38,848 nucleotides of DNA from Gammaproteobacteria bacterium (GTDB lineage: Bacteria; Pseudomonadota; Gammaproteobacteria; Pseudomonadales; Pseudohongiellaceae): contig PWQG01000365.1 of NCBI GenBank assembly GCA_003556835.1, positions 1 to 38,848 on the forward strand, read 5' to 3'. This document shows positions 11,001-35,147 of the stretch, piece by piece (position 1 is the stretch's first letter; each line of letters opens with the position of its first letter). The position numbers and the translations under genes are program-made. The notes under the pieces were generated by a model. The model saw only the letters and a list, made by a program, of their open reading frames with translations. It did not search any database and was not told the DNA's origin.

Positions 11001-12586
11001 TCTGCGGTCAGCCGGTGGGCCCGCACCGGAGCAATGCCGGCGCTGTAGTAGGCATCGCGCGCATCGGCCAGCCAGGCCTTGAGCATGGCGCGTCCTTCGG
11101 CAGCCGGCATGGCCGGCAGCTCGATGCAGGTGCTTGGGTAGCGCCGTTGTGCAGCCTGCAGTGTTGGCCCGCCACGGGTGCTGGCGACAATGCGGGTGTG
11201 TTTGCCCAGTTGCTTCGGCAGCCACTGCAGCATCCAGGCACCATCGCGGCTTTCGAGTTGGTCCAGCGCATCAAGGAACAGCACCAGCGGCCGCTCGGCG
11301 CTCGACCAGGTCAGGGCCTGGCCGAAGGCCTCGATGGCCTGCTTGATCGTCTCGGCCGGCGACGGCTCAGGCTGGTCGTAGGCCAAGGCCAGATCTTCGG
11401 TGAGCGTGGTCAGCAGGGTGTACAGGCTCTCGGTGGTCGGGATACCGCCAATGAAGCGGATCAGCCGGACGCTCTGGTCGCTACTGACCCGAGCATTGTC
11501 GAAGGCCTTGGCCAGCAGAGCAGACTTGCCCGTTCCGCCTTCCCCATGAAGGATCAGCGGGGCATGGCGCTGTCCTTTCAGGTAGCGCGCAATGCGGCGC
11601 AGGGTATTGGTCCGGCCGCGGAAGTTGCGGCTGCGTTCTGCGCCGAAGTCCAGATGGGCCCGGTTGCGCATTGCGCTGGGCGTTTCTTCCTGCACTTGAG
11701 CGAACTGGCGCTCGATGATGGCTTTCTGGTCTTCGAGGAACTGCTGGCAGAAGGTGTCCAGGTAGGCTGGATCAACCCCATTACCCTGCCAGCCGGCACT
11801 GAAGCTGCGGCAGCGGTCGGGCAGGCGTTGCTGGAGTTGCGACTCGAGAGCGCGCAGGCGTGCGTGGGCATCGCTGTCAGGGGCGTCATGTTCAACATCC
11901 CAGTCCAGAAAGGCCCGGGCAGACTGATCCCGCGGCAAGTCGGGGATGCGCCGGATATAGACATGGACATGCTCGTTGGGGTGCAGCGCCTGCCCGGACT
12001 CGTCCTGCTCGGCCAGTGCGCCCAGTGCAATCTCCTGGTGCGTGGCTGATGCAAAGAACGCCAGGCGCTCGTCACCGGTAAAGCCGGCCGCATCGGCTGC
12101 CCGGCGCAGGGCCTGCAGCAGCGTGCCCTCTGCAGTATGGCTCTCAGCCCAATCACCCGCACGGGGCTTCAGCTGGTATACAGCTGGAATGGCGTTGCGA
12201 TCCGGTCCGCGGTAAGCGGATTGAATGATGGCCTGATCCGCTTCATCGGCCGCAGACACAAGACGGTGCCAGCAGTTCTCAGGAATCCGTGCCGGCTCTG
12301 GCTCCCAGCCATAGCGGTCGCCCAGCAGTACGGCGAAGTTCGGACGGGGAGACAGCGCCTGGCAGCGCCGCACTTCTTCCAGGCACAGGCGCAGTGTGTC
12401 ATGGCTTTGCTGCGCTTCCTCGGTGATGCCCCAGCGCAGGTCCACCGCCTGAAAACTCGCACCGCGCTTGCGGCAGAAGGCCTCCAGCTCAGGAAACACC
12501 CGCTTCTGCAGCGCCTCGCGTTCGTCTACGAAATCACTGAAGGTGGAGCTGATGAAAAGCCGGAAAAGACGAGGTTTGTGCATCAA
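8093..12586 (-). pseudogene. DUF4062-NACHT/STAND ATPase with a divergent C-terminal sensor; interrupted by an in-frame amber codon at 10712-10714
   Basis: ORFs 10712..12586 and 8093..10642 are in the same frame. PRLFRLFISSTFSDFVDEREAL (DUF4062), APLILHGEGGTGKSALL (Walker A), RPLVLFLDALDQLE (Walker B). Paralogue 2 reads VMAEFEAQN where this copy reads VMA*FEAQN. Confidence 0.8.
10320..10890. repeat. Copy 1 of a roughly 570-bp module duplicated at 14278-14890
   Basis: Long stretches are near-identical by eye, e.g. ggcgctgatgtcggtgcggcggaacagatcgtcgttgccgggggcccgggcttcgaacatttcgg. Confidence 0.85.
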
Positions 12587-12668
12587 GACTCCAGAGTCAA
12601 CGAACTTATCCTACATAACAGACAGTGCTATGGCACCCGAGCCCGTTGCGGGATGAACCATGCAACTT

Positions 12669-14849
12669 TTACGATGACCTTTGGCAATCAAGCGCAAAGG
12701 GTTTTGATCCACGCATTGGCGACAAGACAATGAGATCATTGCTTGATATCACTACCAATCGACCGTAGAGGCAGGCAACGATCTTTGAAACATCACCCTG
12801 CCAGCGAGCGAACCATTTTCCATCCTTGCTTGCGAGACAAATCCGCCTCATGTCAGGGGTTTCGGCCAAAGTGTCGCCACACGCCTGGGTCAGGGGCATG
12901 TTCTCCAGAACAGGTTTGCACCAGCCGCTCTCGATCGCCGATTCAATCCATGGCTGCTTGATTGCTCCGAGCTGTTCTCCCTCGCTGTTTAACATGCGAA
13001 GCGTGCCCTCTTCATTGCCTATGGACCAGAACAATAGAAGGGAGTCCGAAAGCATCTGCATCCCTTGCAATGCCTGCCTGCGACCACCCCGCAGCACGAC
13101 TGTTGATTCGCCGCTGTCGCCATCCCAGAGTCGCAGCGCGCCATCTTTGGACCAGGACAGGATGCAACCACTGGACAGCACCTGAACGCCTTCAATCCGG
13201 TGCGAATGCCCCTGCATTACTGCCAGTGACGACCCACTGTCGCCATTCCAAAGTCGCAGCGTGGCATCGTCCGACCAGGACAGAATGCGGCCGTCAGGCA
13301 GCAACTCTACGCCCGAAACCACTTCTGTATGTCCCTCCATCACGGCAAGCGGCGCCCCACTGTCGCCATCCCAGAGTCGCAGCGTGCCATCCCACGACCA
13401 GGACAGGATGCGGCCATCGGGCATTAACTCTGCGGCCCAGACTTGTTCCGCATGTCCGGCCATCAAGACCAGTGACACCCCGCTGTTGCCATCCCAGAGT
13501 CGCAGCGCCCCATCAGAGGACCAGGACAGGATGCGACCATCAGGGAGTATCTCTGCGCCCGAAATGGCTTCCGAATGACCCTCCATCACGGCAAGCGGCG
13601 CCCCACTGTCGCCAGCCCAGAGTCGCAGCGTGCCATCCCAGGACCAGGACAGGATGCGGCCATCCTGCAACAGCTCTGCGCCCGAAATGGCTTCCGAATG
13701 ACCCTCCATCACGATCAGTGCCGCGCCGGTCTCGCCATCCCACAGCCGCAGTGTGCTGTCATCAGACCAGGACAGGATGCGGCCATCCTGCAGCACCTCT
13801 GCACCCCATACTTTGTCCGTATGGCCCTCCATCACCGCAACGCAAGCCCCGCTGCTGCCATCCCATAATCGCAGAGTGTGGTCCCTCGACCAGGACAGGA
13901 TGCGGCCATCGGGCAGGACCTTGGTGCCTAGAACCGCGTCACTATGCCCCTCGAGCACCATTAGGGTCTGATTGTGGCGGCGCTGGCCCGGGACATCCTT
14001 GCGCTTCAGCCACACCCAGTCACAATGGTCCTGCTCCAGCCACTGCTCGGCCGCATGACGAACCGGGCTGCCAGGCTCGTCTTCGGAGGCCAACTGCAGC
14101 AGGATCTTGTGCGCAGGCCAGCGCGCTTCACCACGCCGCAGATAGTGGCCTTGCCGGAGCATGAACCGCCGCCATTGCGCTGGCTCGGATGAGGGCTCGG
14201 CCTTAACTGCCGACCAGTCCTCAACCAGTTCACCACCCTGATTGGCCGCACACTTGCCGAGGCAGAAGCCGAAGTCGCTGAGTAATTTCTTAAGCTCGGC
14301 TTGCCGGCCGGCCTGGGCCAGTTGCCAAGGCTGCTCCATCACACGCCGCAGGGCCGGGGCTTGTGGTTGGGCGCTGATGTCGGTGCGGCGGAACAGATCG
14401 TCGTTGCCGGGGGCCCGGGCTTCGAACATTTCGGTCAGGTGACCATGGGTAGTCTCGCGCTGCTCCGCTGTGGCCAGATAGCGCTGCGCGATCACCTCGC
14501 CGAACTCGCGGCTGAACCAGCGGTACAGCAGGATCTGGTCGGTAAAGGCCGACACCAGATAGGGAGCAAGGTCGAAATACAAGCGTGACCACAGCACCGG
14601 CGGCAGGCGGGGATGGTCAGGGTCGATGAGCCATTCCTGCCCTGTCCGGGCATTCTGGGCTTCGAACTCAGCCATGACTTGCGGGTCAGTGGCCAGGGCA
14701 TGGTTCAACTCTTCCTCGCTCAGGCCAAAGCGCGCAGCGCTCAGATAGGCCAGTGCCCGGGTGGTGAAGACCGGCGGGTGCTTTTCCACCTCGACCAGAC
14801 ACTGGTCGATCAGCGCTTCGATCATGCTCGTCACCGTCGCCGGCAGTTA
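12669..14849 (-). pseudogene. 5'-truncated NACHT-family paralogue with a C-terminal WD40 propeller
   Basis: The frame carries TAA at 14847-14849, preceded by HWTSYGPPR matching copy 1 HWTSYEPPK. DUF4062 and P-loop regions are absent. The C-terminus has repeated GHSEAISGAELLQDGRILSWSWDGTLRLWDGDSG units. Confidence 0.75.
13105..13968. repeat. Tandem WD40-coding repeats, 123 bp (41 aa) per unit, about 7 clear units plus a degenerate one
   Basis: Recurring ccatcccagagtcgcagcgtgccatc..gaccaggacaggatgcggccatc; the (G)RILSWS motif recurs every 41 aa. Confidence 0.85.
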
Positions 14850-23212: not shown

Positions 23213-24457
23213 TTAGTGGCTATTCAATCGGGGCCCGCGCTCGGCCAGCAGGCGGCTCATGGCCGAGCCATCCTGGCGGGTCAGGTTGGGGACAAAACGG
23301 GAGTAGGTCTTGAACAGCATTTCGGTCGAGGTATGCCCCAGAATGCTGGCAATCCACTCCGGCGACTCTCCGGCCGCCAACATCAGCGTGGCCGTGGTGT
23401 GGCGAGTCTGATAAGGCCGTCGATAGGGCAGGTCGACATAGGCCAGCATCGGTCGCCAGACCCGCTTGACGAAATTGTTGGTGTCGATCGGCATGCCATT
23501 GCGGTTGCAAAAAACCCACTCATACCGACCGCCAGTGACCTTGTACTGGGCTTCCAGCGCTTCGCGCACGATTGGCAGCATCGGCACATCACGGACTGAC
23601 TCGTAGGTCTTGCCACCACTCTGAACCTCACCCTTGACCAGCGTCTCGCGGACCAGGATCAGGCCTGCATCAAAGTCAATGTTTTTCCAGCGCAGACCGT
23701 GCATCTCCCCGCTGCGCAGTCCGGAGAAAAACCGGACCGCCATGTAGTTCCGATAATCCGGGCGGACCTTTTCAAGGATCAGGTTGACCTCATCCAATGT
23801 GAAAGGATGGACCTCCGTCTTGAGCATCTTCAGTGGTTTGATGCCCTGAAACGCTTGCGGAAACTCGTAGCGATTCGCCGCCTCGTTCAGGATCTGGCGC
23901 AAGAAAGTCATGATCTTGTTGATCCGGTTGTTCCCCAAGCGCCGACCCGTGGGGCTCTGGTGTTTCGAGAGCTGCGCACGAAAGGCCAGCACATCCGCGC
24001 GCTTGATCGTCTCCACAGCACGGTCAGCAAAAGCCGGCAGCAGATACTTGCTCAGCACGCCCTCCACCGCTTCCAGGTGGGAGGGACGCCACTGCGGCGT
24101 GCACTCCATCTTCCAGGTGTCGGCGAAGTCCTTGAACAAAGGCGTGGACGGGACGAACTCCGGCGGAGCCACTGCCGGGACTGGGCCCGGCGTTGGTGCA
24201 GGCTGAGCAGAAGAACCATCCGAACCTGTAGCGGGACCATTCCTGAACTTGGCAGCCCTTTTGCTCCCCGGAAAAAGAGTCGCGTAGTCAAAGGTGCCGA
24301 GGCTGATTTCCTCCAAGACCTTCTTCAACAAGCTCTCCACCTTCCGGCGATTCCGCGGGGTGTCCTCTAGCGAGGTGTACTCCCGGCAGCGCTTTCCAAG
24401 ATAGGAAAAGTCGAGGTACAGGCGCCCGGTCTCGGGCCTGGTTCTTACCTTACCCAT
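23213..24457 (-). CDS. Tyrosine recombinase/integrase with DUF3596-type arm-binding domain
   Basis: MGKVRTRPETGRLYLDFSYLGKRCREYTSLEDTPRNRRKVESLLKK; RFFSGLRSGEMHGLRW; YQTRHTTATLMLAAGESPEWIASILGHTSTEMLFKTYSRF. Confidence 0.93.
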   Translation of the reverse strand: MGKVRTRPETGRLYLDFSYLGKRCREYTSLEDTPRNRRKVESLLKKVLEEISLGTFDYATLFPGSKRAAKFRNGPATGSDGSSAQPAPTPGPVPAVAPPEFVPSTPLFKDFADTWKMECTPQWRPSHLEAVEGVLSKYLLPAFADRAVETIKRADVLAFRAQLSKHQSPTGRRLGNNRINKIMTFLRQILNEAANRYEFPQAFQGIKPLKMLKTEVHPFTLDEVNLILEKVRPDYRNYMAVRFFSGLRSGEMHGLRWKNIDFDAGLILVRETLVKGEVQSGGKTYESVRDVPMLPIVREALEAQYKVTGGRYEWVFCNRNGMPIDTNNFVKRVWRPMLAYVDLPYRRPYQTRHTTATLMLAAGESPEWIASILGHTSTEMLFKTYSRFVPNLTRQDGSAMSRLLAERGPRLNSH

Positions 24458-24467
24458 GCTCGGTCAC

Positions 24468-24815
24468 CTACCTATTGGCCGACAGGTCGACAGGGCTTTT
24501 TACTTTCGGCATCGACCTCCCTGATCCCGGACGCCGACGGACGCCTTTGCGGTCGTCCTCCGCATTCGCAGGCAACCCATCATGATCAGGATGCTCGACT
24601 GAGGCTTCAGTCAGCGGAGCGTGCTCCAGGGAATACTTGACCATGTCCCGCTCGATGGCATCCCAGTAGTAAAGGATCTTGCGCCCACCAAAAGGGCGGA
24701 AGTAGTGGATGCCTTCGTGCAGGACAGAGTCGTTCAGCCGATTGCGGATGGTCCGCTCGTCGTAATGAATGCGCTCGGACAGCTGCGCGGTGGTAATATA
24801 CTCTCTGTTCATCAT
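24468..24815 (-). CDS. Excisionase-like HTH DNA-binding protein
   Basis: YITTAQLSERIHYDERTIRNRLNDSVLHEGIHYFRPFGGRKILYYWDAIE, directly upstream of the integrase. Confidence 0.7.
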   Translation of the reverse strand: MMNREYITTAQLSERIHYDERTIRNRLNDSVLHEGIHYFRPFGGRKILYYWDAIERDMVKYSLEHAPLTEASVEHPDHDGLPANAEDDRKGVRRRPGSGRSMPKVKSPVDLSANR

Positions 24816-24884: not shown

Positions 24885-24916
24885 CTTTTGTTGATTGTCA
24901 ACCCCTTTTGTTGATT
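24885..24916. promoter_or_regulatory. Two CTTTTGTTGATT direct repeats with 20-bp periodicity, candidate operator
   Basis: 24885-24896 and 24905-24916, between the divergent xis-like and Cro/CI-like genes. Confidence 0.55.
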
Positions 24917-24936
24917 TTTTTGAACGCTCGTCGAAA

Positions 24937-25164
24937 ATGATCAGATTCAAGCTGAAGCAGCAGATCGCCGACAAGGAATTCCGCGAGAAGCGCCGGATCA
25001 GCCTTCAGGAAGTGGCGGACGCCACCGAGATCAACCGGGGAACGCTTTCGAAAATGCTCAACCAGCACGGGGCCGTGGTTCGCACCGACGTACTGGACAA
25101 GCTGTGCACTTACCTGGACTGTCGTCTGGAAGACCTGGCGGAGTTCCTTCCTGACGAGAAGTAG
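24937..25164 (+). CDS. Cro/C1-type HTH regulator
   Basis: MIRFKLKQQIADKEFREKRRISLQEVADATEINRGTLSKMLNQHGAVVRTDVLDKLCTYLDCRLEDLAEFLPDEK. Confidence 0.85.
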   Translation: MIRFKLKQQIADKEFREKRRISLQEVADATEINRGTLSKMLNQHGAVVRTDVLDKLCTYLDCRLEDLAEFLPDEK

Positions 25165-25806: not shown

Positions 25807-26940
25807 TCAACGTACGGGTGAAGTCTCTACTTGCGGAACCTTTTGAGCGGTATGTGCGCCACATTCGCAGTTTGGATGTGGCGGAAGATCAACAAAAGAT
25901 ATTTCATTGCTGAGGAAATTGAATTCCCCGCGTCGATTCAGCATCGCCGGCCTAAGACGTTCCGACTTCACAGCAAGCCTAATGACCTCCAATGAAGTCA
26001 GAGAAGAAGTAATCCCAACGAGTGGCGAGAGGCTTCCAAGATTTCGTTTTGGTCTCCAAAGTCTTCTGACCCCTCTAAGAGAATCATCTTCGAGTTCATC
26101 AAGACGCGCACGAGCGCACTCAAAACAGGAGGACTCTCCTGGGATAACTGTCATTCCAATGAGGCTGAGATGGAGGTTATATCCCCCGGCAATCACGTAG
26201 GAAATCTCCTCGACCATGCAGAAGCGGTTAAGCCATGCACTTGTTTGATCGACCGAAGGACTGTCAGCACAATTAACGAAAAGCGTCGGCTTTTCGCGTC
26301 CAAAAATCAAACCGAGATCCTCCTGTCGCCCAACCTCTCTGGAGATTGTCTCTATACTCATCCCCGAATCAATCTCGAGCAGAGCCGCCTTCAGAGCATG
26401 AACCTTCGGCAGTCCAATATCCTGACGTGAGAAAAGCGAGCGATTGAGGTTGGACTCTTCGATGATATCATTATCTATAAGTACAAACTCAGCAACACCC
26501 GACTGCGCTAATTGAATTGCGACCCAACTACCAACCGCGCCGCATCCGAGGATTCCAACTCTCGAATCTCTTATCCTCTGGAAGGCCTCAAATACCTCTG
26601 CTGCTGGAAAGTAGTCCCCGAGAAAGTTCAACACCCTGTAGAACTTACTCGCATTAATTCTTTCTCGAAGAGCCTTTGGCTCCACGATGCACTTTTCGTG
26701 AAGGAGCCCGACAAGGTGTGTGACATTTTCCTCTTTCACAGAGTAAGCTTCAGACACCTTTCGGAGACTATCTTTGCCATCGAGGCTAAGAATCACTTGG
26801 GCAATTTCAGGGGTAAAGCGAAAACGACGAGAGCGACGCGTTGATGATTGAAAAAAATCGAAGATGCTGTCCCCCAAGGGAACGATGGATACTGACGGCC
26901 TTACTAACCAGTGTTCGTCGTATGCAATTTTCCCGACCAT
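25807..26940 (-). CDS. ThiF/MoeB/HesA-family E1-like enzyme with an N-terminal RRE/PqqD-like region
   Basis: RVGILGCGAVGSWVAIQLAQSGVAEFVLIDNDIIEESNLNRSLFSRQDIGLPKV...NCADSP; Cys pairs CFEC and CEC. Confidence 0.85.
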   Translation of the reverse strand: MVGKIAYDEHWLVRPSVSIVPLGDSIFDFFQSSTRRSRRFRFTPEIAQVILSLDGKDSLRKVSEAYSVKEENVTHLVGLLHEKCIVEPKALRERINASKFYRVLNFLGDYFPAAEVFEAFQRIRDSRVGILGCGAVGSWVAIQLAQSGVAEFVLIDNDIIEESNLNRSLFSRQDIGLPKVHALKAALLEIDSGMSIETISREVGRQEDLGLIFGREKPTLFVNCADSPSVDQTSAWLNRFCMVEEISYVIAGGYNLHLSLIGMTVIPGESSCFECARARLDELEDDSLRGVRRLWRPKRNLGSLSPLVGITSSLTSLEVIRLAVKSERLRPAMLNRRGEFNFLSNEISFVDLPPHPNCECGAHTAQKVPQVETSPVR

Positions 26941-26943
26941 TTT

Positions 26944-28083
26944 CTAGTGACCGAAAACGCTACTGCATGTTGGGCATGTCGGGTTTCTCGCAACCTCAAA
27001 ACTGTCGATGCGGTAGTTATCGAACAAAAACTCTCCTCGGCCCTTCTGGGTGTCTTCATGGCTTGTTGTTGCGAAAAACCTGTAAACCTTGAGGGCGGCC
27101 ACAGATGCTGAAAATATTGCTAGCGAACAGAGTCCACCAAAACCAAAACGTCTGTCATCAACGGGATGAGGAGCTGGCTTCCAGTCCTGTAGAGCTGCTT
27201 CAAAATGCGTTGCATAGCAGTCGGCGCATGGGGTGACACCTGGGATTATCATTTCGCTCAAGCAACCCAAATGAGCATCAAACCCTCCAGCCACAAGCAG
27301 TGGAAGTTTTTTCGTCACACAGTAGCGTGAGAGTTTGATACTGGTTGCGCCAATATAGGGTTCGTCAGCAGTATTTATAATAAGCGTTATGCCTGTACCG
27401 ATAAGGGACTCAATCTCTGTGTCTATGTCGAGAGCGGCTCGTCGTATTTCGACCTCAGGGTCAATTGCCTCCGATCTTATGTATGATCTGGCTACCTCTG
27501 CCTTGGAGGCACCGAGCATGTTCTCTTGGTAAAAGGCATTGCGGGTCGCGTCTGCAGGTCTAAGCGGCTTAGGGTCAACGATCACGAATCGTCGAAACCC
27601 CATAGCAACCAGTTCTTTTACGATCCAACTGCCTACTGCACCAACACCGAAGATTGCGATTTTCGCATTCATGATTCTGCGAAAAACAGCCGCGGCTTTT
27701 TCTGTTGTTTCTTCAGTATCCAGCAAGAAGTTCAGCTGCCGTGAGTACCGTAAAGTCCGGTGATCAGGGAATTGCTGTGTCATCCACTCTTTTTCGACAA
27801 GAATTCCCCGTTGAAAAAGATAATTGGCAAATGCCAGAAACGCCGGAGGACGATTAGCATCCTCAGTCAAGAATTGCCCAGTAAATCGGTCTTGCAACTC
27901 GCCTAAAGAGGCTTCTCCATCAAACCATTCGAGCGTTGCGACAAGTTCAGGAATAACGCGGAGGCGTATCCGTTTCCGCGTGGAAAGGAAAACGAAATGA
28001 GTGACAGAATCAGGGGATAAATACACATCAACTCCGTCCCTGAGCCAGAGACGGAGCGATCGGGAGAAACCAGTAATATTCAA
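26944..28083 (-). CDS. Second ThiF-family E1-like enzyme with an N-terminal RRE/PqqD-like region
   Basis: VYLSPDSVTHFVFLSTRKRIRLRVIPELVATLEWFDGEASLGELQDRF; AKIAIFGVGAVGSWIVKELVAMGFRRFVIVDPKPLRPADATRNAFYQENMLGASKAEV; CADC and CPTC. Confidence 0.83.
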   Translation of the reverse strand: MNITGFSRSLRLWLRDGVDVYLSPDSVTHFVFLSTRKRIRLRVIPELVATLEWFDGEASLGELQDRFTGQFLTEDANRPPAFLAFANYLFQRGILVEKEWMTQQFPDHRTLRYSRQLNFLLDTEETTEKAAAVFRRIMNAKIAIFGVGAVGSWIVKELVAMGFRRFVIVDPKPLRPADATRNAFYQENMLGASKAEVARSYIRSEAIDPEVEIRRAALDIDTEIESLIGTGITLIINTADEPYIGATSIKLSRYCVTKKLPLLVAGGFDAHLGCLSEMIIPGVTPCADCYATHFEAALQDWKPAPHPVDDRRFGFGGLCSLAIFSASVAALKVYRFFATTSHEDTQKGRGEFLFDNYRIDSFEVARNPTCPTCSSVFGH

Positions 28084-28289
28084 TACTGAATCTGCCCACC
28101 CCGAACATCCAGAAATTTCGCCCAGTCCTCATCGCTGGCGACAAAGGTGGCATCAGCACTACAAGTCCTTGTGCAGCAGTCTGAACGCGACCCGGAGCAG
28201 TCCTTTGTATACGCCGCTGCGTTGGTCATTCCTTCAGTGATTTCTAATTCTTCGAAGCCGTGGGTCCGCAAGCTGAATTTTTGTTCCAT
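28080..28289 (-). CDS. 69-aa Cys-rich peptide, candidate RiPP precursor
   Basis: MEQKFSLRTHGFEELEITEGMTNAAAYTKDCSGSRSDCCTRTCSADATFVASDEDWAKFLDVRGGQIQY; stop overlaps the start of the ThiF-like gene by 4 bp. Confidence 0.6.
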   Translation of the reverse strand: MEQKFSLRTHGFEELEITEGMTNAAAYTKDCSGSRSDCCTRTCSADATFVASDEDWAKFLDVRGGQIQY

Positions 28290-28325: not shown

Positions 28326-28355
28326 ATTCTAAAGTTTTGTCCGGGCACGAGTCAA
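28326..28355 (-). promoter_or_regulatory. Putative sigma70-type promoter of the peptide/ThiF operon
   Basis: TTGACT-N18-TAGAAT on the minus strand, about 37 bp before ATG 28289. Confidence 0.4.
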
Positions 28356-28433: not shown

Positions 28434-29528
28434 CTATTCATCTTGAAGTGAGAAATGCATTTTGAGTCGCTCGACCGTATGCCGCCACTTTGGAGTTTTC
28501 GGGGCGCAGACGGTGTTCTGATTACCGAATAGCCCTACCTCGTTGATGGCGCGCTCAAGCGGGACCGTCTCGAGCCAGTCGACCGGGACGAAATACTCGC
28601 TTTTCTCTGGATCTGCCTCGAACTGGCGGTGGTAGTGTCCACCGCGCAGTACCTCGAGCGCAGGCTGCAGGGTCCCGTCCTGGCCCGATAGCTCGTACTC
28701 GGCAGCCGGGACGGGGGCACCGCGGACGCGGCCGACGCCGACGAAACCGAAGCCAGGCGCCTTGACCCAGATGCGGTCGCCGGGCTCGAGCATGTTCAGG
28801 GTGCCGCTGTACCAGGCTCCGCCACCCGCGCTGATGAACCCATGCTCCACCGCCTCGGGCCAGGAGCGCGCCTCGCTGTGGCCGAAAGAGGCGTAATACT
28901 CCCCGTTCCAGGGCTCTTTTTCAGACGCCCGGCGACCACTGGTCGACGCCGCCACCTGGGTTTCGACGGGATCGTGCAGCCAGGCGCGACTAAGCAGCGG
29001 CCCGTCTGGAGTCTCGAAGACCTGGAAACACAACACGTTGATGGCGATGTCGCGGCGGTTGAGGTAGCCGACGATGCGCTCGCTGGCCGCATCCAGTGCA
29101 GAGGCGACGATGACGATCTGGTGGCTCTGGTTCAGGGCGTCCTCGTCCAGCAGCTGGCCGAAGCGCTCCCGGAAGGCCTGGCCGAGGTCACCGCCGGCTG
29201 AGAATCGGCCATAGATGCGGCTCAGGTCATCCGCCTCCAGCGATTCGGCCCAGCTGGCGTAGTCCAGCGCCTGGGCCACCACCTCCCGCGGGGTGCGGGC
29301 GCGCTTGAGTTCGATCAGAATCAGCGCCCCGTCCGGCGCCAGCGCCAGCAGGTCGATCCGACCGCCGTGGCCCGTGTCTTCCTGGCGGCCGATGATCATC
29401 CATTCCGGCGACAGGATTTCCGGCGCGGCGACGATCATGTCTTCGAGCAACGCCTCGCTGTCGAGCCGGGACTCATTCAGCGGCTGGGGATTGCGGCCGA
29501 CTTTCCAGATGCTGTGGCGGATGGGCAT
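28434..29528 (-). CDS. NucS/DUF91-like endonuclease-domain protein
   Basis: MPIRHSIWKVG...ALLEDMIVAAPEILSPEWMIIGRQEDTGHGGRIDLLALAPDGALILIELKRARTPREVVAQALDYASW; starts 1 bp after the hsdS stop. Confidence 0.72.
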   Translation of the reverse strand: MPIRHSIWKVGRNPQPLNESRLDSEALLEDMIVAAPEILSPEWMIIGRQEDTGHGGRIDLLALAPDGALILIELKRARTPREVVAQALDYASWAESLEADDLSRIYGRFSAGGDLGQAFRERFGQLLDEDALNQSHQIVIVASALDAASERIVGYLNRRDIAINVLCFQVFETPDGPLLSRAWLHDPVETQVAASTSGRRASEKEPWNGEYYASFGHSEARSWPEAVEHGFISAGGGAWYSGTLNMLEPGDRIWVKAPGFGFVGVGRVRGAPVPAAEYELSGQDGTLQPALEVLRGGHYHRQFEADPEKSEYFVPVDWLETVPLERAINEVGLFGNQNTVCAPKTPKWRHTVERLKMHFSLQDE

Positions 29529-29529
29529 G

Positions 29530-31257
29530 TCAGGCGGCCTCGCGTTCCGGGGCTGTCTCGGCCAGTGCCTCATGCAGCAGAGCATCAAGTAGATGGGTTC
29601 GAGAGGTTTCGGCGGTGGTGAGGGCGGCTTCCAACTGGTCGCAGAGGGCCATGAGGGCATCGACCTTGGCCACGATGCGATGTTGTTCGGCGAGAGGTGG
29701 GAGGGGCTGCAAAGACATGCGCATGTCTCTAACATTTACGTGCTTCGCGCCAATTCCCTTATGCAGCGTCAGGAGTCTGCGAAGCGCTGAAGGCTCTGAT
29801 ATTGCCAACTTAAACCATTCAGAACTAACGACTGGGCTGGGGCGAAACAGCATAACTCTCTGCCCAAGGCAACATTTGAGTCCAGCCGGTACGATGACCG
29901 TCTCCCCAACACTACCTTCTCGTGCAAAAACCACATCCCCTGGTCGCGGAATCAATCTCTTGTTCCGCACCGCAGAAGTTTCTTCCGAAACAAACCTCAG
30001 CTTTTCATAAAGCAACCCAGAGGACTTGACACTGTTGGTATCTAGGCATGCAATCCCGCTCTCCGCAAACTTCGGCGTAGAGTGAGGGCAATCGACAATC
30101 TCCTCGCAAATCTCCTCCGCCGTCACCCAAATCCAAGAAGGGGGGAGCTTATTGGGCGGGCTTGACTTCACTGCTCTCCAAGCCTCAAGAAGTTTTGTGC
30201 GTTTCCCTTTAGTCAGGCCAGACAATTTCTCGCTTAGCCACTGATCCAGCCCCTCTGAAATCGGCACATCGGAAGGGGTTTGTTCTTCTAACCTGCCTTG
30301 GACCGCGAGGTTGAGGATAGTCTGGCGGAGTTGCTTGATTTGGTCGGGACGGGTGGTGAGTGCGGGGAGCGTGTCGATGGCGAAGCGGGCGTGGGTGGGG
30401 AAGGTTTCGGGCTCTGCGTCGGCGGCGGTCAGGCGGGCGAGGCTGGAAACGGTCAGTCGGTCGCGGGTCGCCTCGCGCTGCTGCCGCGCCGCCTCCACCC
30501 GATCCAGGAGCCCCATCAATTCCTCCACCTTCGCCACGATCCGTCGCTGCTCGGCGAGGGGTGGGAGGGGAAAAGGTGAGCCAGCAAAATAGTCAGCCGG
30601 CACGCGCTTCTGACCAGCAGTACCGGTCATTCGGGGTATGCCAATCTCAATAAATTGCGGGCTCTTGAGGAAAGTAACGATGTAATCGGCTTCCACAAGG
30701 ATCGGGCGAATTACATGCAGCTCGGTCGTTCCCGCTCCGATGCCGCCTGTCAGGCCTCGAAACACGGTCGACTTGCCATTCTCAAAGCAAGGCGTGATCT
30801 TCGCCAGGCCAACATCTCCCTCGGCAAAATGGGTGTAGCCCTTCTTGATATCGCCCCAGGACCGTACCTCATGCTTATTGGGCACACCGTACTCGGCAGC
30901 AATCATCGGCATGGGGACGAATGATGCTTCCAAGTCATCCTCGGCCTCATTCCGGGGACTCACCAAACCAAGCTGCCCTAGCTGCGTCCAGACCCAACCA
31001 CTCGGCACCGAAAACGGCAGGTCACTTTGGTCCAGAGACGAAATATCCCTTGGTTTCCGGGCCACACCGGCCTTTACCAAGCTCGCTTTCTCAGCCCCAA
31101 CCCGCTTCAACAACTCCGCCGCCGGCTCATCATTTGGGTCTTGCTCCACCAGCTTTCCCCTAACCGCCAAGTCCAGCACAAAGCGCCGCAGCCGTGAAAT
31201 GGCGTCAGGCGCCTCGGCAACCTTTTCGTAGAGCGCGAGGAGTTGATCCGCATTCAT
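29530..31257 (-). CDS. hsdS: Type I restriction-modification specificity subunit
   Basis: Two target-recognition halves, each ending in a LPPLAEQ(R/H)RIVAKV(E/D)xLM helix. Confidence 0.93.
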   Translation of the reverse strand: MNADQLLALYEKVAEAPDAISRLRRFVLDLAVRGKLVEQDPNDEPAAELLKRVGAEKASLVKAGVARKPRDISSLDQSDLPFSVPSGWVWTQLGQLGLVSPRNEAEDDLEASFVPMPMIAAEYGVPNKHEVRSWGDIKKGYTHFAEGDVGLAKITPCFENGKSTVFRGLTGGIGAGTTELHVIRPILVEADYIVTFLKSPQFIEIGIPRMTGTAGQKRVPADYFAGSPFPLPPLAEQRRIVAKVEELMGLLDRVEAARQQREATRDRLTVSSLARLTAADAEPETFPTHARFAIDTLPALTTRPDQIKQLRQTILNLAVQGRLEEQTPSDVPISEGLDQWLSEKLSGLTKGKRTKLLEAWRAVKSSPPNKLPPSWIWVTAEEICEEIVDCPHSTPKFAESGIACLDTNSVKSSGLLYEKLRFVSEETSAVRNKRLIPRPGDVVFAREGSVGETVIVPAGLKCCLGQRVMLFRPSPVVSSEWFKLAISEPSALRRLLTLHKGIGAKHVNVRDMRMSLQPLPPLAEQHRIVAKVDALMALCDQLEAALTTAETSRTHLLDALLHEALAETAPEREAA

Positions 31258-32702
31258 CGCGCCAGCGCCTCGGACAGAATTGTTTTCAACTGGTCACGCA
31301 GGGCCGCCACATCGGCCTCAGCCGCCGTCAGATCCTCCAGCAGGCTCTCCGGGTCGCCATGATCTTCCTCGACGGTATGCGGGTTCTTGATATCGAGGTT
31401 GTACCCCCGGGTCTTGATGTCGTCAGCCGAGACCTTCCAGGCGCGCTCGTTCTCCACCCTGCCCTCGCGCTTGGCGCCGCCCCACCATTCGGCACAGTCA
31501 GCCAGGTGCTCCAGCTTGATCGGGCGCGTCATGGAATAGGCTTTCTGTCCTTCGGGCACCTGGTGTTCCCAGAACCAGGTCTCGCGGGTTGGTGCGCCCT
31601 TTTCGAAGAACAGCAGATTGGTGCCGATGGAGGCATAGGGTCGGAACACGGAGTTGGGCAGGCGGACGATGGTGTGCAGATTGCACTCCTCCATCAGCTG
31701 CTCCTTGAGCCGGGTCTTGACGCCCTCGCCGAACAGCGAACCGTCGGGCAGCACCACCGCGGCGCGGCCGCCGGGCTTGAGCAGGCGGATGATCAGGGCC
31801 AGGAACAGGTCGGCCGTCTCTCGGGTGCGGAAGTGCTGGGGGAAGTTGGATTCGATCCCGTCTTCCTCGCGGCCGCCGAAGGGCGGATTGGTCAGGACGA
31901 TATCGACGCGCTCGTCCTTGCTCCAGGAGATGTAGGGCCGGGCCAGGGTGTTGTCGTGGCGCAGGAATGAGGGGTCTTCGATGCCGTGCAGCAGCATGTT
32001 GGTCACGGCCAGCATGTGCGGCAGCTGCTTCTTCTCCACGGCGCGCAGCGAGCCCTGCATGCGGGTCTCGTCCTCCGGCCGCTTGACGTAGTGCTCGCGC
32101 ATGTGGCGGATGGCGCAGGTCAGGAAGCCGCCCGTGCCACAGGCCGGGTCGAACAGCGTCTCGCCGGGCTTGGGGTCGGTCATCTGCACCATGAACGAGG
32201 TCACCGCCCGCGGGGTGTAATACTCGCCGGCGTTGCCTGCCGACTGCAGGTCGTTGAGGATCTGCTCGTAGATGTCGCCGAAGTGCTGGCGCTCGCTCAG
32301 GTTGTTGAAGTCGATGCCGTTGATCTTGTTGACCACCTGGCGCATCAGCTGGCCAGACTTCATGAAGTTGTAGGCGTCCTCAAACACATCGCGAACCGTG
32401 CGAGCACGCGGCGTGCGCGGCGCCAGGCCCTTGAGTGTCGGGAACAGGTCGTCGTTGACGAAGTTCAGCAACTCGTCGCCGGTAATCCCCTCCGGATCAG
32501 CCGCCCAGCTGCGCCACTGCAACCGCTCGGGGATCGGGGAGCGGTAATCGTCCTTGAGCAGCTCCAGTTCCTGATCCTGATCGTCGATGATCTTGAGGAA
32601 AAACATCCAGCACAGCTGGCTGATGCGCTGGGCATCGCCGTCGACGCCAGTGTCCTGACGCATGATGTCCTGGATGGATTTAACGAGGGTTCTGACGGAC
32701 AT
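31254..32702 (-). CDS. hsdM: Type I restriction-modification N6-adenine methyltransferase subunit
   Basis: FDPACGTGGFLTCAIRHM and DIVLTNPPFGG; 4-bp overlap with hsdS. Confidence 0.96.
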   Translation of the reverse strand: MSVRTLVKSIQDIMRQDTGVDGDAQRISQLCWMFFLKIIDDQDQELELLKDDYRSPIPERLQWRSWAADPEGITGDELLNFVNDDLFPTLKGLAPRTPRARTVRDVFEDAYNFMKSGQLMRQVVNKINGIDFNNLSERQHFGDIYEQILNDLQSAGNAGEYYTPRAVTSFMVQMTDPKPGETLFDPACGTGGFLTCAIRHMREHYVKRPEDETRMQGSLRAVEKKQLPHMLAVTNMLLHGIEDPSFLRHDNTLARPYISWSKDERVDIVLTNPPFGGREEDGIESNFPQHFRTRETADLFLALIIRLLKPGGRAAVVLPDGSLFGEGVKTRLKEQLMEECNLHTIVRLPNSVFRPYASIGTNLLFFEKGAPTRETWFWEHQVPEGQKAYSMTRPIKLEHLADCAEWWGGAKREGRVENERAWKVSADDIKTRGYNLDIKNPHTVEEDHGDPESLLEDLTAAEADVAALRDQLKTILSEALAR

Positions 32703-32705
32703 TCT

Positions 32706-35147
32706 TCAGGCTATTTCCTTGTAAAGTTCCATTTGAAGCTGATGCACCGCCCGCTCGAACTCCGGTCGGCCGCCGAAGGCCCGAACCAACTCGATCGGCG
32801 TACCAATTTGATCAAGTGGCGGAATGCGCAGCACGTTGGTGTTGTCAAGGTTCATAATGCCCTCATCGGCGTACTTGCCAAGCAGTGCATCCAGAACCGC
32901 CCGCGCCTGATCGCCATAACGGGCGAAAACATCGCGCTTGCGCACGTTCTCGGCCCGCTCCCGTCGTGTCAGTGGCTTGGCATCAAAGGCGACATGGCAG
33001 ATGAGATCAAACGCGTCCATGTCCTTGCCAAGCTCATCCAGAATGGGATCGAGCGGCAGACCCTCTTGCTCCAGCTCTTCCAGCAAGGCTTGCTTACGGT
33101 CCGTTGCATTCCAGCGGCGGAGGAAGTCATCCAGGCTGGCGAAACGCTTGCGCAGGGCTTTCTTGGTGAAATCGCGCAGGGACTCAGTGACCAGCTTGCC
33201 GTTGGCATCCAGATACTCGACCCGTTCGGCAACGATGTGGGCCGAGACACCGTCGACATAAATCTTGGGGCGGGGCTCCGGCCTTGGGCCTGGCGGCTCG
33301 GGATCGACGATTATCGTCTCGTCTTCGCCTGGCGTTTCCGGTATGGGGTCACCGTCAGGGTCGATTGGTGGAACCTCGGGCGGATCGATGGGGCCGCCCT
33401 CTTCCGGCTGGTAGATCTGCACCGGCTCGCCGTCGAAGTCCGGATCGGCAAAGTGGCTGGTGGCGCCCCGGAAGTCGATCAGGGTGAAATAGAACTTGCC
33501 GGTGTCCTCATGCACCCGCGTCCCGCGCCCGACGATCTGCTTGAACTCGGTCATGGAGCCAACCTCGCGGTCGAGCACGATCAGCCGGCAGGTCTGGGCA
33601 TCGACGCCGGTGGAGAGCAGCCGCGAGGTGGTTACCAGGACGGGCCACTTCGACTCAGGATCGATAAAATTGCCCAATTGCGCCTGCCCCTCGGGGTCGT
33701 TGCCGGTGATGCGCATGACATAACGGGGGTTTTCAAGCACCAGATCGGGGTTTGCATTGACCAGGGCCTGGCGCATTCGGCCGGCGTGTTCCTGATCGAC
33801 GCAGAAAATGATGGCTTTTTGGTAGCTGTCGCCGGCCTCCTTCAGAAACTGGGTGACCTTTTCGGCAACCAGGCGAGTGCGATCGTCGATGACCAGATGG
33901 CGGTCGAAATCCTTGGTGTTGTAGATCCGGTCTTCGACCAGCAGGCCGTCGCGGTCGCGCTTGCCCTTTTCGGGGCGGTAGCCGTCCACATCGCGGTCGA
34001 TGTGCACCTTGACGACCTTGTAGGGCGCCAGGAAGCCGTCGCTGATCCCCTGCTTGAGGGAATAGGTGTAGACCGGCTCGCCGAAGTAGGCGATGTTGGA
34101 AACGTACTTGGTTTCCTTCGGTGTCGCGGTCATGCCGATCTGGGTGGCTGAGCCGAAGTACTCGAGAATTTCCCGCCAGGCCGAGTCCTCGGCCGCGCTG
34201 CCGCGGTGGCACTCGTCAATGACGATCAGATCGAAGAAGTCCCGCGAAAACTCCCGGAATAGCTTCTGGTGCTCCTCCGGGCCGGTGATCGCCTGATACA
34301 GGCCCAGGTAGACCTCATAGGCGGTGTCGATCCGCCGCTGCCGATCCACGGCCAGGGGCAGGTCGATTTGGGTCCCGTCGGCACGCTCGATGGTCTTGGC
34401 CTGGGTCGACAGTTTCGCCATGGCCCCGCCGAACGGGCGGAAATCGTTGACCATGGTCTGGTCGATCAGAACATTCCGGTCGGCGAGGAACAAGATGCGT
34501 TTCTTCCGGCCTGACTTCCACAGCCGCCAGATGATCTGGAAAGCCGTGTAGGTCTTGCCCGTCCCGGTGGCCATGACCAGCAGTATTCGATCCTGGCCCC
34601 GGGCAATCGCCTCGATGGTCGCATTGATGGCGTTGACCTGGTAATAGCGCGGGGTCTTGCCACTGCCGTCGTCGTGGTAATCCTCCAGAACGACTTGCTC
34701 GGCCTCGGAGTCCAGCCCTTTCCAGGCGCGGTATCGCCGCCACAGTTCGTCCGGCGCCGGGAACTCATCCAGGGCCAGATTGCACTCTGGAGGGTGGCTC
34801 GCCCCCGTCCGGTCGTGGAAGACGAAACCATCGCCGTTGGAGGAGAACACGAAGGGGATTTTGAGGGTCTCAGCATAGCCCAGGCCCTGCTGCATGCCGT
34901 CTCCGACGCTGTGACGGTTGTCCTTGGCCTCGATCAGCGCGATCGGGATATTAGGCTTGTAGTAGAGGACATAATCCGCTCGCTTGGCCCGCCCCCGGCT
35001 CACCATCTTGCCGCGCACAATCAGGCGGCCCTTGGTGAAGCTGACCTCCTCGCGGATCTGAAACATCTCGTCCCAGCCGGCCTGGCGGAGGGCCGGGGTG
35101 ATGAATTTGGTGCAGATGTCGCGCTCGGATAGAGCCTTTTTATCCAT
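32706..35147 (-). CDS. hsdR: Type I restriction enzyme R subunit
   Basis: PNIPIALIEAKDNRH (nuclease), LLVMATGTGKTYTAFQIIWRL, LIVIDECHRGS, IGMTATPKETK (SF2 helicase motifs). Confidence 0.95.
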   Translation of the reverse strand: MDKKALSERDICTKFITPALRQAGWDEMFQIREEVSFTKGRLIVRGKMVSRGRAKRADYVLYYKPNIPIALIEAKDNRHSVGDGMQQGLGYAETLKIPFVFSSNGDGFVFHDRTGASHPPECNLALDEFPAPDELWRRYRAWKGLDSEAEQVVLEDYHDDGSGKTPRYYQVNAINATIEAIARGQDRILLVMATGTGKTYTAFQIIWRLWKSGRKKRILFLADRNVLIDQTMVNDFRPFGGAMAKLSTQAKTIERADGTQIDLPLAVDRQRRIDTAYEVYLGLYQAITGPEEHQKLFREFSRDFFDLIVIDECHRGSAAEDSAWREILEYFGSATQIGMTATPKETKYVSNIAYFGEPVYTYSLKQGISDGFLAPYKVVKVHIDRDVDGYRPEKGKRDRDGLLVEDRIYNTKDFDRHLVIDDRTRLVAEKVTQFLKEAGDSYQKAIIFCVDQEHAGRMRQALVNANPDLVLENPRYVMRITGNDPEGQAQLGNFIDPESKWPVLVTTSRLLSTGVDAQTCRLIVLDREVGSMTEFKQIVGRGTRVHEDTGKFYFTLIDFRGATSHFADPDFDGEPVQIYQPEEGGPIDPPEVPPIDPDGDPIPETPGEDETIIVDPEPPGPRPEPRPKIYVDGVSAHIVAERVEYLDANGKLVTESLRDFTKKALRKRFASLDDFLRRWNATDRKQALLEELEQEGLPLDPILDELGKDMDAFDLICHVAFDAKPLTRRERAENVRKRDVFARYGDQARAVLDALLGKYADEGIMNLDNTNVLRIPPLDQIGTPIELVRAFGGRPEFERAVHQLQMELYKEIA

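Follow-up and report, generated by a model that had tools for sequence, protein, structure and literature searches.

Several enzymes that couple an RRE-like domain to a ThiF/E1-type adenylation domain are known to modify ribosomally made peptides. MccB, the microcin C7 synthase, is a single homodimeric enzyme which acts on a 7-aa peptide ending in Asn, yields a nucleotide product and is accompanied by an exporter. PaaA, the pantocin A enzyme, likewise works alone, on a Glu-Glu-Asn core. GrcB and IndF, ThiF-like macrocyclases of streptococci, adenylate a carboxylate and make Glu-Cys thiolactone or Trp-Ile indolylamide rings, respectively, in pathways which also include radical SAM tailoring (grc) or a protease and a transporter (ind) (PMC12250964, PMC12150305). 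In the enzymes characterised so far the activated carboxylate is attacked by an amide (MccB), the backbone or a side chain (PaaA), Cys (GrcB) or Trp (IndF), and each new branch has brought a new bond (phosphoramidate, bicycle, thiolactone, indolylamide). A different group of proteins, the short UvrA-like Ecm16 and DrrC, is encoded next to biosynthetic genes and protects producers of DNA intercalators. The known ones guard producers of quinomycin-, anthracycline- and aureolic-type compounds, not RiPPs (PMC10192343).

We describe here a locus which combines two enzymes of the first kind with a short cysteine-rich peptide and, in most relatives, with a protein resembling the second kind. In the review of ThiF-like RiPP enzymes and in the global RRE-ThiF mining paper, as far as these were consulted, only single ThiF enzymes are described, and text searches found no paper pairing two ThiF-like enzymes, or ThiF with UvrA, although subscription papers and most preprints were outside this search and the unlabelled network clusters of the IndF authors could contain the family. 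The enzyme fold is known, while the pairing, the precursor and the UvrA association are apparently undescribed.

Peptide and enzyme genes of the operon

The window, i.e. the whole stretch of DNA that was analysed, is 38,848 nucleotides long (contig PWQG01000365.1) and belongs to a 3.37-Mb, 90%-complete draft genome of the same class as Pantoea. The first-pass annotation, made from the sequence alone, had proposed that a Cys-rich peptide and two RRE-containing ThiF/E1-like enzymes form a candidate undescribed RiPP pathway, and our analysis supports this proposal. The three genes exist as described there, tightly packed and co-oriented (Table 1). A sigma-70-like promoter precedes them, but as such sites are no more frequent here than in shuffled sequences, only its position is suggestive.

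Table 1. Positions of features in the window and, where a locus label precedes the numbers, in other loci examined
Position	Strand	Feature	Details
28080-28289	-	precursor peptide gene	69 aa, ATG start; MEQKFSLRTHGFEELEITEGMTNAAAYTKDCSGSRSDCCTRTCSADATFVASDEDWAKFLDVRGGQIQY
28161-28199	-	predicted core	C31-S-G-S-R-S-D-C-C-T-R-T-C43
28083-28124	-	invariant C-terminal tail	W56...L60....G65-x-x-Q68-Y69
28080-28083		overlap of peptide gene and ThiF-A	4 bp
26944-28083	-	ThiF-A, RRE-E1 enzyme	379 aa, TTG start
27784-28083	-	RRE-like N-terminal domain of ThiF-A, predicted	about residues 1-100
26941-26943		gap between ThiF-A and ThiF-B	3 bp
25807-26940	-	ThiF-B, RRE-E1 enzyme	377 aa, ATG start
26647-26940	-	RRE-like N-terminal domain of ThiF-B, predicted	about residues 1-98
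28326-28355	-	sigma-70-like promoter	TTGACT-18-TAGAAT, 37 bp before the precursor start
23213-24457	-	tyrosine integrase	Pfam Phage_integrase 3.3e-19, Arm-DNA-bind_2 4.1e-23
24895-25164 and 24468-24815		small Cro/C1-type HTH gene and a short HTH-like gene beside the integrase	possible island regulators
28434-32702	-	phage-defence neighbours	PDC-S11 candidate gene, type I specificity and methyltransferase subunits
28434-29735		PDC-S11 candidate defence protein	NucS-like C-terminal similarity
32706-35147		ORF directly upstream of hsdM	813 aa, in the position of HsdR
L083:8691-13576		G1043 copy (Pantoea family)	divergent from and directly beside RADAR genes rdrA and rdrB
L025:4445-4891		RadC-like JAB-domain gene in Sporolactobacillus	between precursor and ThiF-A; possible peptide-processing protease
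L085:289-5283 and 12273-13514		Hhe/PDC-S37 helicase-nuclease (1664 aa) on one side of the Pantoea cluster and MobA/VirD2-type relaxase on the other	probably a mobilizable element
L062:5743-6927 and L065:5551-6672		single MccB-like ThiF genes	near transporter-like genes on contigs labelled viral (IMG/VR)

Both enzymes match Pfam ThiF far above cut-off (2.3e-25 and 1.1e-36). Pfam gives no PqqD/RRE hit, but AlphaFold2 models built from family alignments show four strands followed by three helices before the E1 domain. In ThiF-B the strands span residues 10-41 and the helices residues 44-82, with an N-terminal pLDDT of about 90 (82.7 for the whole model). In ThiF-A they span residues 11-42 and 45-91, with a pLDDT of about 60-80 (71.5 for the whole model). 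These models rest on 6-7 sequences, and the domain packing of ThiF-A is uncertain (pTM 0.64). Nevertheless, Foldseek searches with the full-length models gave MccB as the best match for both enzymes, RRE included (for ThiF-B, TMt 0.78 over 363 columns), and by sequence MccB is also the best PDB match of both, with PaaA being the next RiPP enzyme. The enzymes are therefore of the MccB/PaaA type and not of the Ocin-ThiF type which the first-pass annotation had named among the possible parallels. The Cys pairs noted there are real (C286/C289/C370/C373 in ThiF-A and C272/C275/C358/C360 in ThiF-B), but they align with Cys pairs of MccB and are most likely structural zinc ligands rather than catalytic residues.

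In a joint alignment both enzymes keep the Arg and Lys equivalent to PaaA R174 and K187, whose mutation cripples PaaA (PMC12250964), as well as the Mg-binding Asp, the Arg of the RYxR motif (the invariant Arg102 in ThiF-B) and four Cys. ThiF-B has the canonical nucleotide site (GxGxxG, DxD, SNLxR, Lys179, Asp226). ThiF-A, on the other hand, has a changed SNL motif, and the second Asp of its D-x-D motif is replaced by Lys in 8 of 9 members. It is thus possible, though we hold this only tentatively, that ThiF-A is a non-catalytic, substrate-binding or structural subunit of a heterodimeric E1 in which ThiF-B does all adenylation, as in APPBP1-UBA3 or SAE1-SAE2. The constant pairing and co-evolution of the two enzymes (see below) would agree with this idea. 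However, ThiF-A keeps Arg115, Arg181, Lys194, Asp240 and the four Cys invariant, and the Sporolactobacillus ThiF-A keeps D-x-D.

Two other kinds of chemistry were considered and seem very unlikely. One is YcaO-independent azoline or thiazole formation on the Cys residues by the E1 pair. The core has four invariant Cys, and both enzymes show weak similarity to SagC/TOMM leader-binding profiles, but the scores (TIGR03603 and TIGR03882) are far below the TOMM cut-offs, MccB and PaaA are much closer relatives, and no YcaO or dehydrogenase was found in the window operon or in the flanks annotated or searched in relatives. The other is ubiquitin-like or sulfur-carrier chemistry, with the peptide as a small carrier whose C-terminus is activated and conjugated or thiocarboxylated. 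PADLOC E1-E2 profiles do hit the ThiF domain, and a RadC-like JAB-domain gene occurs in the Sporolactobacillus cluster. Still, the PADLOC hits cover only the common Rossmann core, the peptide is Ser/Asn/Cys-rich, gives no ThiS/ubiquitin-family hit and has no Gly-Gly terminus, no sulfurtransferase lies nearby, and the three-gene operon contains neither the E2 nor the ubiquitin-like partner of E1-E2 conjugation systems (CBASS, BIL, 6A). The RREs point instead to peptide tailoring.

Distribution and conservation of the dual-ThiF family

A tblastn search of plasmids gave the first paired relatives, in Acinetobacter johnsonii pXBB1-8 and Moraxella osloensis pNP7-2. A single-sequence pattern scan of genome contigs found nothing, but a three-member alignment did. 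Profile searches added Pantoea ananatis LMG 2665, Brenneria alni, Cedecea neteri, Methyloprofundus, an Aestuariivita MAG, Sporolactobacillus spathodeae, one genome of another proteobacterial class (G085) and another genome of the Pantoea family (G1043). The family is rare: it was found in 4 of 397 genomes of the Pantoea family, 1 of 369 of the class, 3 of 399 of the phylum and 1 of 348 of the Sporolactobacillus phylum, where the class count and the last count are only the window genome and Sporolactobacillus themselves. None of the other 96 relatives of the window genome searched, most of them from the same family, carries the pair, so it was probably acquired. Phage records contained no ThiF-A, viral contigs gave only unrelated single ThiF proteins, and nothing was found at the DNA level in E. 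coli genomes.

The peptide is a real conserved gene. All nine distinct relatives with an intact upstream side (Pantoea, Brenneria, Cedecea, another Enterobacteriaceae, Acinetobacter, Moraxella, Methyloprofundus, Sporolactobacillus and another proteobacterial class) carry a peptide of 63-72 aa before ThiF-A, with one extra gene intervening in Sporolactobacillus, and tblastn with the Acinetobacter and Methyloprofundus peptides finds the window peptide at 1e-11 and 4e-13. The Pantoea and Brenneria peptides are identical. The peptides share L.L.F.V near the start, the core pattern C-x6/7-CC-x3-C (with C31, S36, C38, C39 and C43 of the window peptide invariant) and a tail W-x3-(Y/F)L...(A/G)GxxQY, whose Tyr ends the chain in every relative. 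Core and tail are invariant although the enzymes share only 29-42% (ThiF-A) and 33-58% (ThiF-B) with the window. The gene is under purifying selection, as the Pantoea and Cedecea copies differ at 52% of synonymous but only 9% of nonsynonymous sites (pN 0.088 vs pS 0.52). These precursors resemble neither the heptapeptide of MccB nor the Glu-Glu-Asn core of PaaA; no EEN occurs in any precursor core.

ThiF-A and ThiF-B form two old paralogous clades, each monophyletic (100/100 and 99/96), with congruent branching. Pairwise identities correlate as well, with rho of 0.94 between A and B, 0.74 between precursor and A and 0.71 between precursor and B. Together with the predicted RRE-like fold of the N-termini, the presence of the small ORF in all relatives with an intact upstream side means that two of the three grounds on which the first-pass annotation could have been rejected do not apply.

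We consider it very likely that the three genes are the biosynthetic core of a RiPP pathway, and likely that this pathway involves E1-type carboxylate activation, even though no product, mass shift or activity is known. In the scenario we favor, with moderate confidence as a whole, the RREs hold the N-terminal leader of the precursor (LxL.F.V). ThiF-B, with its complete nucleotide site, would use Mg-ATP to adenylate a carboxylate, most likely that of the invariant C-terminal Tyr or an acidic side chain, and a nucleophile of the core (a Cys thiol, or the invariant Trp as in IndF) would capture it, giving a macrocyclic thiolactone- or amide-type peptide. ThiF-A might make a second such bond or work as a partner subunit. 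As the invariant features are a fixed C-terminal carboxylate, a Trp 13 residues before it and four Cys, ring closure by thiolactone or amide chemistry is the most economical proposal. A conserved pair acting on a Cys-rich peptide would be a new branch of ThiF-like RiPP enzymes.

A UvrA-like gene in most relatives

In all seven main-clade clusters with a complete downstream side, ThiF-B is followed in the same direction, usually with an overlap, by a gene for a 706-780-aa protein annotated as an ABC ATPase, which the first-pass annotation could not see. This protein is a UvrA paralogue. It has the UvrA DNA-binding domain (PF17755) but lacks the UvrB-interaction domain (PF17760), while the canonical UvrA of the window genome has both, and it matches Deinococcus UvrA2 (2vf7) and Ecm16 (7sh1) in one uninterrupted stretch over its whole length. 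The Moraxella copy, bounded by insertion sequences, shows that peptide, ThiF-A, ThiF-B and the UvrA-like protein form a self-contained four-gene module.

The window and its nearest relative lack this gene. The window operon and the Aestuariivita copy, the latter with 526 bp of free flank, have no UvrA-like gene, and their genomes show only canonical UvrA (the window genome being 90% complete), whereas G085 and Brenneria cannot be judged because their contigs end. No UvrA remnant was found in the window, where only ordinary ABC ATPase hits appeared near 38.3 kb, and no second UvrA was found elsewhere in the genome, as the remaining hits look like pieces of canonical UvrA. The argument for DNA as a target thus rests on relatives.

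The UvrA-like partner is the only basis for inferring that the product binds DNA and that the UvrA-like protein clears it from the producer's own DNA, as Ecm16 is proposed to do for echinomycin. UvrA-like proteins of this size also occur outside biosynthesis (Deinococcus UvrA2), and we regard DNA as a target to be about as likely as not. If correct, a UvrA-type protection gene beside a RiPP would point to a genetically encoded, four-gene DNA-binding peptide.

Genomic neighbourhood and missing exporters

No protease or exporter gene adjoins the operon. No exporter was found in eight dual-ThiF loci, in contrast to four of four single-ThiF loci with an adjacent MFS or ABC transporter (Fisher p 0.002, a post hoc comparison). 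In addition, several copies lie beside phage-defence systems: RADAR (RdrA/RdrB), BREX (PglZ/BrxL), a Hhe/PDC-S37 helicase and, in the window, type I restriction together with PDC-S11. One might thus imagine that the same modified peptide stays in the cell, binds DNA and blocks phage replication, as daunorubicin-type intercalators do (DNA intercalators block phages; PMC13250531), with the UvrA-like protein sparing the host chromosome. Such chemical immunity would explain the missing exporter, but we consider it unlikely on present evidence. RiPP clusters co-locate with defence genes more generally (class II lanthipeptides, PMC12715929), no background rate was measured for these loci, and the Moraxella, Cedecea and Sporolactobacillus copies have no phage-defence gene that we recognised in the stretch examined.

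The window operon itself sits in what looks like a mobile island, with the integrase and small HTH genes on one side and the PDC-S11 and type I genes on the other. No att repeat was found between tRNA-Met and the integrase, and an Rfam search gave only the tRNA. The listed ORF of the PDC-S11 candidate overlaps hsdS by about 200 bp, so its true start is probably further in.
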